Assembly: GCA_016931115.1 (NCBI GenBank)
Contig: JAFGFM010000074.1
Coordinates: 1 to 39,270 of the forward strand
Direction: 5' to 3'
DNA: 39,270 nt
Origin: Deltaproteobacteria bacterium
Lineage (GTDB): Bacteria > Desulfobacterota > DSM-4660 > Desulfatiglandales > HGW-15
Part shown: piece after piece, positions 2,934-33,059 of the stretch
Layout of the letters: each line of letters starts with the position of its first letter
Numbering within the stretch: the stretch's first letter is position 1
Notes under the pieces: generated by a model
Database searches by the model: none
Seen by the model: the letters and a program-made list of their open reading frames with translations, nothing else
What the model was told of the DNA's origin: nothing
Position numbers and translations under genes: made by a program

Positions 2934-3989
2934 ATGCACTTTGAATCACCACTCGCATTTCTATTATTGATTTTGATACCTCTCCTGATCTACATGCAGT
3001 TTTTTAGAAACAGGGGAGGCACTGTAAGGTTTTCATCTGTTGGAAATGCGGTAAAGGCATCAAGATCAATAAAGGTAAGGTTTATAAGGCTGCCTGATAT
3101 CATCCGCATTATCTCACTCATCCTTATTATCATAGCCCTTGCGAGGCCCCAGACAGGCAGGGAGAGGATAAGCGAGATCAGTAAGGGTATAGCAATAGAG
3201 ATGGTTGTTGACCGCTCAAGCAGCATGACCGCTGAGCTAGAATACAGGGGTGAAAAGGTGAATCGCCTTGAGGCTGTAAAAGGTGTGTTCAAGGAATTTG
3301 TGCTTGGCGGAACGAGCGGCCTCAAGGGAAGGCCCAATGACCTTATAGGTATGATTGTCTTTGCAAGATACCCTGATACTGTTTGCCCCCTTACACTGGC
3401 GCACGGCGCACTCCCTGCATTCTTAAAGAGCGTAAACATTGTACAGACACGTGAAGAAGATGGCACTGCCATAGGCGATGCCATAGCCCTTGCAGCCGCC
3501 CGCCTTAAAAGGGCAGAGGATACCCTTAAGGAAGATAAGGAGGGGTCAGCCAGATATGAGATTAAAAGCAAGGTGATAGTGCTGCTCTCAGATGGTGAAA
3601 ACAACTTTGGTAAACGTTCGCCCATCCAGGCCGCTGAGCTTGCGAGGGAATGGGGAGTAAAGATATATGCCATAGCCATAGGGGGCGAAGAGGCTGTTAC
3701 ATCCATACAGACACCCTTTGGCACCTACAAGATACCCTCAAGGCAGAGGGTTGATACAACAGCGCTCAGGGTTGCTGCTGAAAAGACAGGAGGTCTGTTT
3801 CGTGAGGCCAATAACGCAGACGCCCTTATTGATATATATAAAGAGATAGATGCAATGGAAAAAAGCGAGATAGAGTCTGTACGCTACGTAGATTACCAGG
3901 AGTCATTCATATGGCCTGCCATTGCAGGATTCCTTCTGATATTACTTGAGATCCTTTTGAGAAATACCATTTTCAGGAGGATACCATGA
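2934..3989 (+). CDS. batA: BatA-type vWA membrane protein
   Basis: A 351-residue vWA protein with two N-terminal membrane segments (about 8-24 and 55-71), the typical ALARPQ motif, a vWA domain from about residue 87 and a C-terminal membrane helix (about 328-345), the usual BatA architecture. The MIDAS motif is intact: D93-R-S-S-S97, with a later T (EDGTAIGDA) and the LLSDGENN strand. The start overlaps nothing and lies 5 bases after the preceding stop. The stop overlaps the batB start by four bases (ATGA), indicating translational coupling. Bat proteins were named from Bacteroides aerotolerance, but their molecular function is not settled; MoxR-driven assembly or stress protection is the usual proposal. 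Confidence 0.93.
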   Translation: MHFESPLAFLLLILIPLLIYMQFFRNRGGTVRFSSVGNAVKASRSIKVRFIRLPDIIRIISLILIIIALARPQTGRERISEISKGIAIEMVVDRSSSMTAELEYRGEKVNRLEAVKGVFKEFVLGGTSGLKGRPNDLIGMIVFARYPDTVCPLTLAHGALPAFLKSVNIVQTREEDGTAIGDAIALAAARLKRAEDTLKEDKEGSARYEIKSKVIVLLSDGENNFGKRSPIQAAELAREWGVKIYAIAIGGEEAVTSIQTPFGTYKIPSRQRVDTTALRVAAEKTGGLFREANNADALIDIYKEIDAMEKSEIESVRYVDYQESFIWPAIAGFLLILLEILLRNTIFRRIP

Positions 3990-5014
3990 ACGGGATTGTG
4001 CTGCACAACATAAACATGCTTCACCTGCTGTGGGTGCTCCCTTTTATCTTCCTGATATATCTCTATGGCTGGTCAAAAAAGAAAAAGGCCCTTGAGCTTT
4101 TTATTGAGGCAGGGCTTATTAACAGGATAAATATCTCATCAGACAGATCAAAGAGGTATTTCAAATCTCTGCTTATTATTGTTTCTACTGCATTTGTCAT
4201 CCTCTCCCTGACCAGGCCATCATGGAACCCTGTGCCTGAAAAGATAGAACGCAGGGGAAGGGATATTGTGTTTCTCCTTGATGTGTCAAAAAGCATGCTC
4301 GCAGAAGACCTTGTGCCAAACCGCATAGAGCGTGCAAAGCTTGCTATCAATGACTGTATAGATGGGCTTATGGGTGACAGGGTGGCCCTTGTTGCCTTTG
4401 CAGGAACTGCTGCTGTTAAATGCCCTTTAACCCAGGACTATGGTTTTTTCAGGACCATGCTCAAATCAGTAAATACAGAAAGTATTGCCAGGGGCGGCAC
4501 CATGATAGGAGATGCCATAAGGCTTCTTTTAACCGATGTATTTGATGACCAGGCAAAGGAATACAAGGACATAATCCTGATAACTGATGGCGAGGATCAT
4601 GACAGCTTTCCAATTGAAGCTGCGAAAAAGGCAGGAGAAAAGGGGATAAGGATTATTGCCATAGGTATTGGGGATGAGAATGAGGGCAAGAGGATACCTG
4701 TTACAAACGAAAATGGTGAAAGGATCTTTCTAAAATATAATGGTCAGGAGGTCTGGTCAAAACTTGATGCAGATACATTAAGAAAGATGGTAAATATGAC
4801 CCCTGGCGGTAAGTATTTTAATGTTGCGACAGGCACCATTGACCTTGGCACAGTCTACAGGCAGCTCATTGCAGGGGCAGAAAATAAGGAGCTGGAATCA
4901 GAGACCATCAACCGCTACGAGGAAAAATTCCAGATATTCTTAAGCGTTGCCTTTTTCCTTTTATGCATCGAGTTTTTTTTATCTGAGAGAAAAAGAGGTG
5001 GACGCAATGTTTAG
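3986..5014 (+). CDS. batB: BatB-type vWA membrane protein
   Basis: A 342-residue paralogue of the previous gene with the same layout: N-terminal membrane segments (about 13-28 and 61-75), the conserved TRP motif at the end of the second, a vWA domain with MIDAS D99-V-S-K-S103 followed by the family signature MLAEDLVPNRIERAK, the G-G-T-M-I-G-D-A-I motif and a LITDGEDHD strand, and a C-terminal membrane helix (about 311-330). The start overlaps batA by 4 bases (ATGA), and the batC start at 5007 lies inside the last codons, so batA, batB and batC are probably translated as a coupled unit. BatA and BatB presumably pair in the inner membrane with their vWA domains outside. Confidence 0.93.
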   Translation: MNGIVLHNINMLHLLWVLPFIFLIYLYGWSKKKKALELFIEAGLINRINISSDRSKRYFKSLLIIVSTAFVILSLTRPSWNPVPEKIERRGRDIVFLLDVSKSMLAEDLVPNRIERAKLAINDCIDGLMGDRVALVAFAGTAAVKCPLTQDYGFFRTMLKSVNTESIARGGTMIGDAIRLLLTDVFDDQAKEYKDIILITDGEDHDSFPIEAAKKAGEKGIRIIAIGIGDENEGKRIPVTNENGERIFLKYNGQEVWSKLDADTLRKMVNMTPGGKYFNVATGTIDLGTVYRQLIAGAENKELESETINRYEEKFQIFLSVAFFLLCIEFFLSERKRGGRNV

Positions 5015-6326
5015 CAGGCTCTTCAAGGATAATTCAGGGTCGTCATTCCCGCGCAGGCGGGAATCCATTGTTCCTCATAGTTTCTGGATTCCCGCCTTCG
5101 CGGGAATGACAGAAAAGAAAAATAAATTAGTTCTCGTATGGCCTCTCAAGAGAAACATTATATTTCTATTCATTATTATTCTCTTATTGACAGGTGATAC
5201 CGCCTTTGCAGACTCAACCGCAAAATTTATCGACAAAGGTAACAGGGCATGGCTCTCAGGCAACTATGATGATGCAATAAAGAGTTATGATGAGGCAGGG
5301 GTCAATGACCCTGAATCTCCATTTATTTATTTCAACAAAGGTACAGCCCTCTATAAAAAGGGGGATTTTCAGGGGGCTATAGAGGCCTTTGAAAAAGCTG
5401 CCCTTAAAAGTAAAGAGCCTTTAATGGAGGCAAAAAGCAGGTTTAACCTGGGTAACTGCACATTCATGGAGGCAGAGCGCCAGATGGATAGTGACCCAGA
5501 AAAAGCCTTTGAACTATACGAAAAAAGTGTGAAACACTATCGAGATGCCTTGAAACTTGATCCAAACATGATAAAAGCTGCTCAAAATATAGAAAAAGTT
5601 CGTCCGGTGATGAAAAAAGCTTTAGATGAGATCAAGAAGAGAGCCGAAGCAGCAAGAGAACAGGGACAGCAGGCAAAGGAGAATGCGGAAGAGCTTCAGA
5701 AGCTCATCAAAAGACAGGAAGAGGCCCTTGAAAAAAACAGAGAGCAATCCAAAAAGAATATCCAATCTTCTGAAAAGAAAAAAGATATGGATCAACTGGC
5801 TGACGAACAGAAGGCCATATCTGATGGTACGCAGAGGTTTAGTGATAAAATAAAGGTTCAGGCACAACAGCAGAACCAGGCAGAGGCAAATCCGGCATTG
5901 ACCCATCTGAATAATGCTGTTAAAGAGCAGCTTGCAGCAGAGGGAAACTTAAGAAACCTGAACCCCTCAGTGGCTGAAAAAAACCAGGAGAATGCGGTAA
6001 AGGAATTAAAGGAGGCGCTCACTCCACCGGAACAGGATCAGAAAAATCAGGGAAACGATCAGCAGAAAAAGGATGAACAGCAGGGAAACCAGGGCCAGCA
6101 GGGGCAAGAGGAGCAGAAGGATCAGGATAAAAAAGAAAATGGCGGGGAGCAGCCCGAACAAAAGGATGGGCAAGATAAAGAGGATCAAAAGAGTGAAGAA
6201 GAGCAGCCATCCATGCAGAAGCAGGGGGTAGACCCACAGGATATACTGGATGAAGAGGCGGATAACAAGAAAGACCGCAAGCTCAGGGCATCAGGCGGTT
6301 ACAGCGATGTTGATAAGGACTGGTAA
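5007..6326 (+). CDS. batC: BatC-type TPR protein with a repeat-encoded N-terminal extension
   Basis: The start at 5007 is chosen because AGAGGTGG (4994-5001) is well placed and the ATG overlaps the batB stop; an in-frame ATG at 4947 would overlap batB by 68 bases. From 5007 the protein has 439 residues. Residues 12-35 are encoded by an inserted palindromic repeat (5042-5110) and read S-F-P-R-R-R-E-S-I ... W-I-P-A-F-A-G-M-T. Only after this comes a signal-peptide core (about 50-63, ending T-A-F-A at 68). TPR units cover about 70-210 (F-I-D-K-G-N-R-A-W, P-F-I-Y-F-N-K-G-T-A-L-Y-K-K-G-D-F). The remainder is a Gln/Glu/Lys-rich, probably coiled or disordered tail ending in D-V-D-K-D-W, typical of BatC. 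An ATG at 5106, inside the repeat, could also give a conventional signal peptide, but its upstream sequence is a poor ribosome-binding site. Confidence 0.88.
   Translation: MFSRLFKDNSGSSFPRRRESIVPHSFWIPAFAGMTEKKNKLVLVWPLKRNIIFLFIIILLLTGDTAFADSTAKFIDKGNRAWLSGNYDDAIKSYDEAGVNDPESPFIYFNKGTALYKKGDFQGAIEAFEKAALKSKEPLMEAKSRFNLGNCTFMEAERQMDSDPEKAFELYEKSVKHYRDALKLDPNMIKAAQNIEKVRPVMKKALDEIKKRAEAAREQGQQAKENAEELQKLIKRQEEALEKNREQSKKNIQSSEKKKDMDQLADEQKAISDGTQRFSDKIKVQAQQQNQAEANPALTHLNNAVKEQLAAEGNLRNLNPSVAEKNQENAVKELKEALTPPEQDQKNQGNDQQKKDEQQGNQGQQGQEEQKDQDKKENGGEQPEQKDGQDKEDQKSEEEQPSMQKQGVDPQDILDEEADNKKDRKLRASGGYSDVDKDW
5042..5110. repeat. Palindromic repeat of the GTCATTCCCGC...GCGGGAATGAC type inside batC
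   Basis: Two 26-base arms (5042-5067 and 5085-5110) are inverted copies of each other with one mismatch (GCGCAGG versus GCGAAGG), separated by a 17-base spacer. The outer ends are GTCATTCCCGCG and CGCGGGAATGAC. This sequence type is common as an interspersed palindromic repeat in many proteobacterial genomes and is usually intergenic. Here it is translated, without stop codon or frameshift, as part of BatC. Confidence 0.93.
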
Positions 6327-9509: not shown

Positions 9510-9848
9510 ATGAAAGTAAAGATTGAGTTTATCGCTACATTACCAATTAAAATAGTTAAAAAAAATAAATGTTATGTTGCTTCATGCCCTATTTTGGATG
9601 TTTTTTCACAAGGTGATACAGAAGACATTGCCAGAAAGAACCTTTCAGAAGCTTTATCTTTATTTTTCAGGTCTTGTTTTGAAAGGGGCACCCTTGATGC
9701 AGTTTTAAAACAATGTGGCTTTAGTGCTGTTGAGCCCGGAAAAACCGAAATAAAAACGAAAAACAGCATTGCAGATAGAGATGATTATATTAGTATACCT
9801 ATTCCCTTTCTTGTTAGCCAAAACTCACAAACAGAATGCCACGCTTAA
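9510..9848 (+). CDS. hicB: HicB-family antitoxin-like protein
   Basis: A 112-residue protein with the HicB partial RNase H-like core: IVKKNKCYVASCPILDVFSQGDTEDIARKNLSEAL (split here as the strand K-C-Y-V-A-S-C-P-I-L-D-V, the Q-G-D-T turn and the helix A-R-K-N-L-S-E-A-L), matching the usual W/Y-V-A-x-C-P-x-L-x-V-x-x-Q-G-x-T pattern. HicB binds and neutralises HicA and usually represses its own operon. No clear ribbon-helix-helix or HTH is seen in the C-terminal 40 residues, so autoregulation is uncertain. It precedes and overlaps hicA by 13 bases; antitoxin-first order is one of the two known arrangements. AT content is higher than in the neighbouring operons, consistent with horizontal gain. 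Confidence 0.8.
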   Translation: MKVKIEFIATLPIKIVKKNKCYVASCPILDVFSQGDTEDIARKNLSEALSLFFRSCFERGTLDAVLKQCGFSAVEPGKTEIKTKNSIADRDDYISIPIPFLVSQNSQTECHA

Positions 9849-12997: not shown

Positions 12998-13203
12998 ACC
13001 ACGGAGTTCACGGATATTTTATCTTTTACTCCGTGCTCTCAGGGTCCTTGTATGGTTGAAAAGACAGACTAAAATTGAACCGCAAAGACGCAAAGGGCGC
13101 AAAGAAAAACAAAAATTATTTATGGTTATATAATAAAAAACTTTTCTCCGTGCTCTCCGCCTGTCCCGCCATAGCTTCAGCGAAGGCGGATGTCCTCCGT
13201 GGT
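12998..13203. repeat. Nested repeat element bounded by ACCACGGAG / CTCCGTGGT
   Basis: The segment begins with ACCACGGAG (12998-13006) and ends with its exact reverse complement CTCCGTGGT (13195-13203). Inside are A-C-C-G-C-A-A-A-G-A-C-G-C-A-A-A-G-G (from 13079) and TCTCCGTGCTCTCCG, both hallmarks of a widespread interspersed repeat. A second hairpin (13156-13190, arms TCCGCCT and AGGCGGA) interrupts the right side, so one element has been inserted in another. It fills most of the gap between the ABC-F and moaC genes. An open frame through it (from 13075) is a by-product of the repeat. Confidence 0.8.
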
Positions 13204-32990: not shown

Positions 32991-33059
32991 CACGCAAAGA
33001 CGCAAAGAACACCAAGAAAAATAATTTATTTTAAGTAGTTACCTTTGTGCCTTTGTGTG
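32991..33059. repeat. Short interspersed repeat of the CGCAAAGACGCAAAG family
   Basis: CACGCAAAG (32991-32999) and CTTTGTGTG (33051-33059) are inverted ends with one mismatch. The inner CGCAAAGACGCAAAG is shared with the element at 12998-13203, so two members of one repeat family occur in this window. It lies between the phosphofructokinase and diadenylate cyclase genes. Confidence 0.8.

Follow-up and report, generated by a model that had tools for sequence, protein, structure and literature searches.

The batC gene in the stretch of DNA analysed here (39,270 nucleotides, hereafter the window) carries a palindrome of mobile type near its 5' end, and the question raised by this locus is whether ribosomes read through the repeat on their way to the signal peptide or begin translation inside it. 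The genes batA, batB, batC and batD were all present in the window (Pfam and NCBIfam), the best NCBIfam match of batC being TPR_BatC_Lepto (E 3.6e-17), under the family's cut-off. The batB stop codon (5012-5014) overlaps the batC ATG at 5007, and the palindrome occupies 69 bp, or 23 codons (5042-5110), in frame between this ATG and the signal peptide. Read from ATG 5007, BatC runs MFSRLFKDNSG-SSFPRRRESIVPHSFWIPAFAGMT-EKKNKLVLVWPLKRN-IIFLFIIILLLTGDTAFA-DSTAKF with no stop; a preliminary description had placed the 69-base repeat in frame between this start and the signal peptide, and both its coordinates and the stop-free frame proved right. The hydrophobic core has its maximum at BatC residues 50-62 and is followed by TAFA and then, from residue 69, by DSTAKF. 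The predicted signal peptide is likely cleaved after TAFA (residue 68), and DST/EST behind this putative site is common to two more distant homologues (G065 and G025). The preliminary description had also called batC essential-looking, a label that sits poorly with Leptospira biflexa, for which PMC3557215 describes growth as unaltered after deletion of all bat ORFs.

Table 1. Features of the batC 5' region, in positions of the window.
Feature	Position	Strand	Basis
batB (VWA domain protein)	3986..5014	+	ORF; Pfam VWA_2 E 2.6e-22
Shine-Dalgarno-like stretch for ATG 5007	4996..5004 (approximate limits)	+	Anti-SD duplex
batC (TPR protein, 439 aa), best-supported start	5007..6326	+	ORF; Pfam TPR_2 E 7e-13
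First REP unit: CGTC tag 5041-5044, 8-bp stem, 4-nt loop, CCA tail	5041..5067	+	
Dimer spacer, 17 nt	5068..5084	.	Identical to none of the other paired elements listed (21 total)
Second REP unit, inverted, TGTC tag variant, contains ATG 5106	5085..5111	-	
In-frame ATG carried by the repeat, alternative start	5106..5108	+	Within second arm
Basic linker / n-region end (EKKNKLVLVWPLKRN), fast evolving	5111..5156	+	Comparison with sister
Putative signal peptide: hydrophobic core and c-region	5157..5210	+	Hydrophobic peak

The two arms of the palindrome (5042-5067 and 5085-5110; 26 nt each, 96% complementary) are separated by 17 nt, and each is itself a small hairpin, ATTCCCGC-4 nt-GCGGGAAT, the first unit reading ATTCCCGC-GCAG-GCGGGAAT-CCA. 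REPs of the CGTC-1 type are described as having an 8-bp stem, a 4-nt loop, a CCA tail and a tag, which is a terminal unpaired CGTC, or TGTC/CCTC; dimers with the tags outside are termed HH (PMC3733652). Like CGTC-1 HH dimers, the batC element has such tags (CGTC at 5041-5044, TGTC in the inverted unit) facing outward, an 8-bp stem with AT at its first two positions, a 4-nt loop and a CCA tail, and its family is dispersed and multi-copy. The genome that holds the window contained 58 arm matches at ≤2 mismatches (29 + 29 by strand; 0 for a reversed-pattern control), and matches occurred in 64 of the 99 genomes searched, this one included. Many of the 2-mismatch arms carry paired changes, for example ATACCCGC...GCGGGTAT, so the small stems have been kept. 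The folded region (4980-5160) gave z = -5.76, and none of 200 shuffles was as stable. Judged by these features, the batC palindrome is an inverted (HH) dimer of CGTC-1-type REP units and is REPIN-like. Six Y1_Tnp matches were found in the same genome, none sharing a contig with a listed REP arm in this assembly of 240 contigs, and several of the six sit near contig starts; a cognate RAYT flanked by the same REP was not seen in the 240-contig draft. Elsewhere in the window, 13081-13112 and 32993-33024 form a pair of CGCAAAGACGCAAAG-type repeats that are 84% alike, and 9510-9848 holds a 112-aa ORF that by eye looks HicB-like.

A BatC search of 99 genomes returned one same-genus relative (G001, hereafter the sister; 77% identity), and its batC has the same repeat at the same position; the insertion is therefore older than the split of the two species, and an assembly artefact can be rejected. 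Identity to the sister reaches 25/26 nt in arm 1 and 17/17 nt in the spacer, with 28/35 nt before the repeat and 22/36 nt after it (5111-5146). We compared 21 paired elements (15 from the genome of the window, for which loci had been extracted at 30 of the 58 arm places, and 6 from the sister), and the 17-nt spacer common to both batC copies was found in none of the other 20 of these 21. Because this spacer is shared with no other listed element, the two batC copies trace to one insertion, and separate insertion events in each species, or gene conversion, are disfavoured. The second arm of the sister has four changed positions and a 36-nt insert at the tip of the small hairpin (L032 1593-1628), which is in frame and leaves the frame open. 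This insert was single copy at ≤3 mismatches in the 61 genomes searched. That it represents a second repeat family is unsupported; a gapped pattern matched once in G000 and once in G001, both times at an unrelated site.

Four more distant homologues (G065, G025, G015 and G006; 45-47% identity) have presequences of ~21-26 residues with no extension and no repeat, and their signal peptides lie right behind candidate batC starts near or overlapping the batB end. The BatC presequence in the window measures 68 residues, and 45 when the 23 repeat codons are left out, so the repeat would appear to account for the genus-specific extension only in part. The preliminary description had expected an ordinary N-terminus once the repeat was removed: the N-terminus would indeed be shorter, but its ~45 residues still exceed those of the four distant relatives. 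An extension lacking the repeat was sought in relatives, as that description had advised; the same-genus relative has both, and the four distant homologues have neither. An empty batC site was not found, one other same-genus genome having been compared, and a search for further batC orthologues in named genomes gave 2 loci from 32 candidate stretches, neither informative.

The two candidate starts differ in their initiation signals. The best anti-Shine-Dalgarno duplex was -7.6 kcal/mol at ATG 5007 vs -3.1 at ATG 5106, and the site around ATG 5106 is fully paired in the predicted fold (unpaired probabilities ~0). The preliminary description was right to regard 5007 as a well-supported start, given this match and the overlap with the batB stop, but its proposal that translation has moved to ATG 5106 finds little in the window to recommend it. 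The hairpin begins 35 nt downstream of ATG 5007, a distance at which it should not cover a ribosome initiating there; both species preserve the overlap between this ATG and the batB stop, which speaks against the suggested disturbance of batB-batC coupling. Between the two ATGs the frame is open in the sister despite 12 substitutions and the 36-nt insert. The chance of this was ~0.15 (0.67 for 12 random substitutions x 0.66 for a shuffled insert x 1/3 for length), and frame retention thus appears to support translation from 5007 only modestly.

The sister differs at the inner ATG. Its 36-nt insert puts GGAGGAGGG 8 nt upstream of the repeat's own ATG, giving an anti-Shine-Dalgarno value of -12.6 kcal/mol that equals the strongest of the starts scored in the window and was reached by none of 500 shuffles of the insert; the site is likewise paired in the fold, and the upstream start has a moderate initiation signal. 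Because the insert supplies GGAGGAGGG near the repeat ATG, the idea that the repeat has donated a start codon, also part of the preliminary description, looks weak for the window and live for the sister. The sister could represent a stepwise capture of the start codon, in which the REP dimer brought an ATG and the insert later supplied its Shine-Dalgarno sequence, leaving two nested batC starts; we consider this unlikely. On this same reading, the inner start would be locked in the hairpin and opened only by ribosomes from the outer start, and batC may be shifting its start into mobile DNA.

Initiation at ATG 5106 in the window itself would give a 35-residue signal peptide and make 5007-5105 an untranslated spacer with most of the hairpin. 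The sister conserves this in-frame ATG and has gained the strong upstream match just described, and a presequence of 35 is closer in length to those of the relatives. But the window has no Shine-Dalgarno sequence there and the site is closed; 91 nt would also separate the batB stop from a start at 5106, while the candidate starts of the four distant homologues are found near the batB end or overlapping it, and the open frame upstream would be a coincidence. Together these points make a start at 5106 distinctly improbable. Both starts might instead be used, ribosomes from 5007 melting the hairpin and the internal ATG also initiating, with two precursors and one mature BatC as the outcome. Only translation through the hairpin would free the internal site, and the sister combines strong signals at the internal ATG with a moderate one upstream, yet in the window species 5106 lacks a Shine-Dalgarno sequence, and we hold dual initiation to be very improbable.

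Conservation inside the repeat bears on what, if anything, is selected. Third codon positions agreed with the sister in 22/23 cases in the repeat, 251/366 in mature batC and 260/335 in batB. Protein-level selection would not explain this; the pattern hints that DNA or RNA, and not the peptide, is under constraint, or it may be chance. We treat the conserved repeat DNA as no more than a hint of function, given that 136 of the 4275 43-nt windows in the region reach the conservation of arm 1 plus spacer. In the linker, identity to the sister by codon position was 6, 8 and 8 of 12, and there seems to be little sign of protein-level selection on its codons. That the hairpin is an RNA control element tuning batC and downstream expression, its translation being incidental, would fit its high stability, the third-position identity and the post-transcriptional roles proposed for REPs (PMC3733652), but it sits inside an ORF and the sister's second arm is interrupted and altered (not decisively, the sister fold remaining stable via alternative pairing at -52.7 vs -47.9 kcal/mol), and we give this reading hardly any credence.

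The batC element is not alone in lying within a coding region. ORFs over arms were assessed at 59 loci, with L075, a match near a contig end, left out. In the genome of the window, 3 of the 15 paired elements lie within ORFs of at least 100 aa that match known families (batC, L018 and L029), and a fourth (L015) touches a 115-aa ORF. One of the three is an MfnE-like amino-acid kinase ORF (L018 / L103; C15:21606-22367, minus strand), in which a 69-bp REP dimer lies in frame and is read in the peptide frame that batC uses (SSFPRRRES...IPAYAEIT). The kinase orthologue of the sister (77% over 1-194) has an empty site with homology continuing on both sides, which bears out the preliminary description's view of the repeat as a mobile type. 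The other is an FG-GAP secreted protein ORF (L029 / L164; C212:4724-6376, minus strand), in which a 79-bp element lies upstream of the signal peptide and is read in a frame other than that of batC; the FG-GAP protein of the sister aligns from residue 87 onward and lacks the repeat, with a similar AAGGAAAT...ATG context upstream. Across the 21 elements, 39 of 126 frames were open and the length was divisible by three in 7, so an open in-frame insertion is not improbable in itself. At one contig edge of the same genome (C50; L004 11-36), a REP arm directly precedes a CobN-like ORF whose start resembles a signal peptide, and the contig end truncates the dimer, removing its other half.

From the element observed here, its family and frame, its ancestry common with the sister, the start-site features and the other in-frame copies, we propose with a probability of roughly 0.74 that a REP dimer inserted in an ancestor and that translation from 5007 runs through it, the repeat being more plausibly tolerated than adaptive. 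A CGTC-1-type dimer would have inserted near the batC 5' end in the ancestor of both species, after the intact start overlapping the batB stop and ahead of the signal peptide, landing in a stop-free frame of its own. Ribosomes would have kept starting at ATG 5007 and reading through the repeat, and BatC read from this start would contain repeat peptides such as ESIVPHSFWIPAFAGMTEK. An n-region of ~50 residues with a net charge of +7 would result, ahead of an otherwise normal Sec signal peptide, and signal peptidase would then remove the extended presequence. Translation, export, cleavage and neutrality are what we infer; we favour a tolerated over an adaptive insertion, and the N-terminal part of BatC probably includes a stretch encoded by the repeat that does no harm.

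Read in this way, batC is a clear natural case in which a mobile palindrome of a bacterium has entered a protein sequence. The site is the n-region that precedes the signal peptide, where nearly any sequence in frame would be tolerated and which is removed later. The genus presents old and recent insertions together, in the shared batC copy, the kinase insertion whose site is empty in the sister and the FG-GAP insertion, and if the inner start of the sister is used, it would give a stepwise view of a mobile repeat taking over the translation initiation of a host gene. REPINs, reportedly defined by Bertels and Rainey in 2011, are said to be two inverted REPs dispersed as a unit. They are tied to RAYT transposases. 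The batC repeat likewise consists of two inverted REPs but may differ in the RAYT tie, the Y1_Tnp matches of its genome sharing no contig with a listed arm in the 240-contig draft.

Among described families, the CGTC-1 HH dimers include Neisseria dRS3 and Rickettsia RPE-6 (Di Nocera et al. 2013, PMC3733652), and the link of the batC repeat to RPE-6 is taken from that description. For CGTC-1 REPs no dedicated transposase is described there; in the 240-contig draft that contains the batC repeat, none of the Y1_Tnp matches shared a contig with a listed arm. Unlike most CGTC-1 dimers, with spacers of 20-100 bp, the batC repeat has a slightly shorter one of 17 nt. Intragenic CGTC REPs, N-termini included, are already known. 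The same paper warns, however, that misannotated starts may make most REPs at ORF N-termini extragenic, which counts against our reading, and batC is not among the host genes named for CGTC REPs in the available text of PMC3733652. A literature search on the repeat peptide motifs returned nothing relevant by title. In Rickettsia, RPE insertions are translated in frame (Ogata et al., reviewed in PMC2229807 and PMC10969869); for one such insertion enzyme activity was measured (reviewed in the same two papers), and Rickettsia conorii proteins with RPE-1-decorated N-termini are expressed in vivo (PMC3733652). Rickettsia RPEs comprise several families of 105-146 bp (PMC2229807), whereas the batC repeat is a 69-bp element of CGTC-1 type in an unrelated genome. 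Like them, it is a short palindrome lying in frame within an unrelated protein, presumably translated and apparently tolerated. REPs translated inside genes, N-termini included, have been published before, and batC adds one more to their number.
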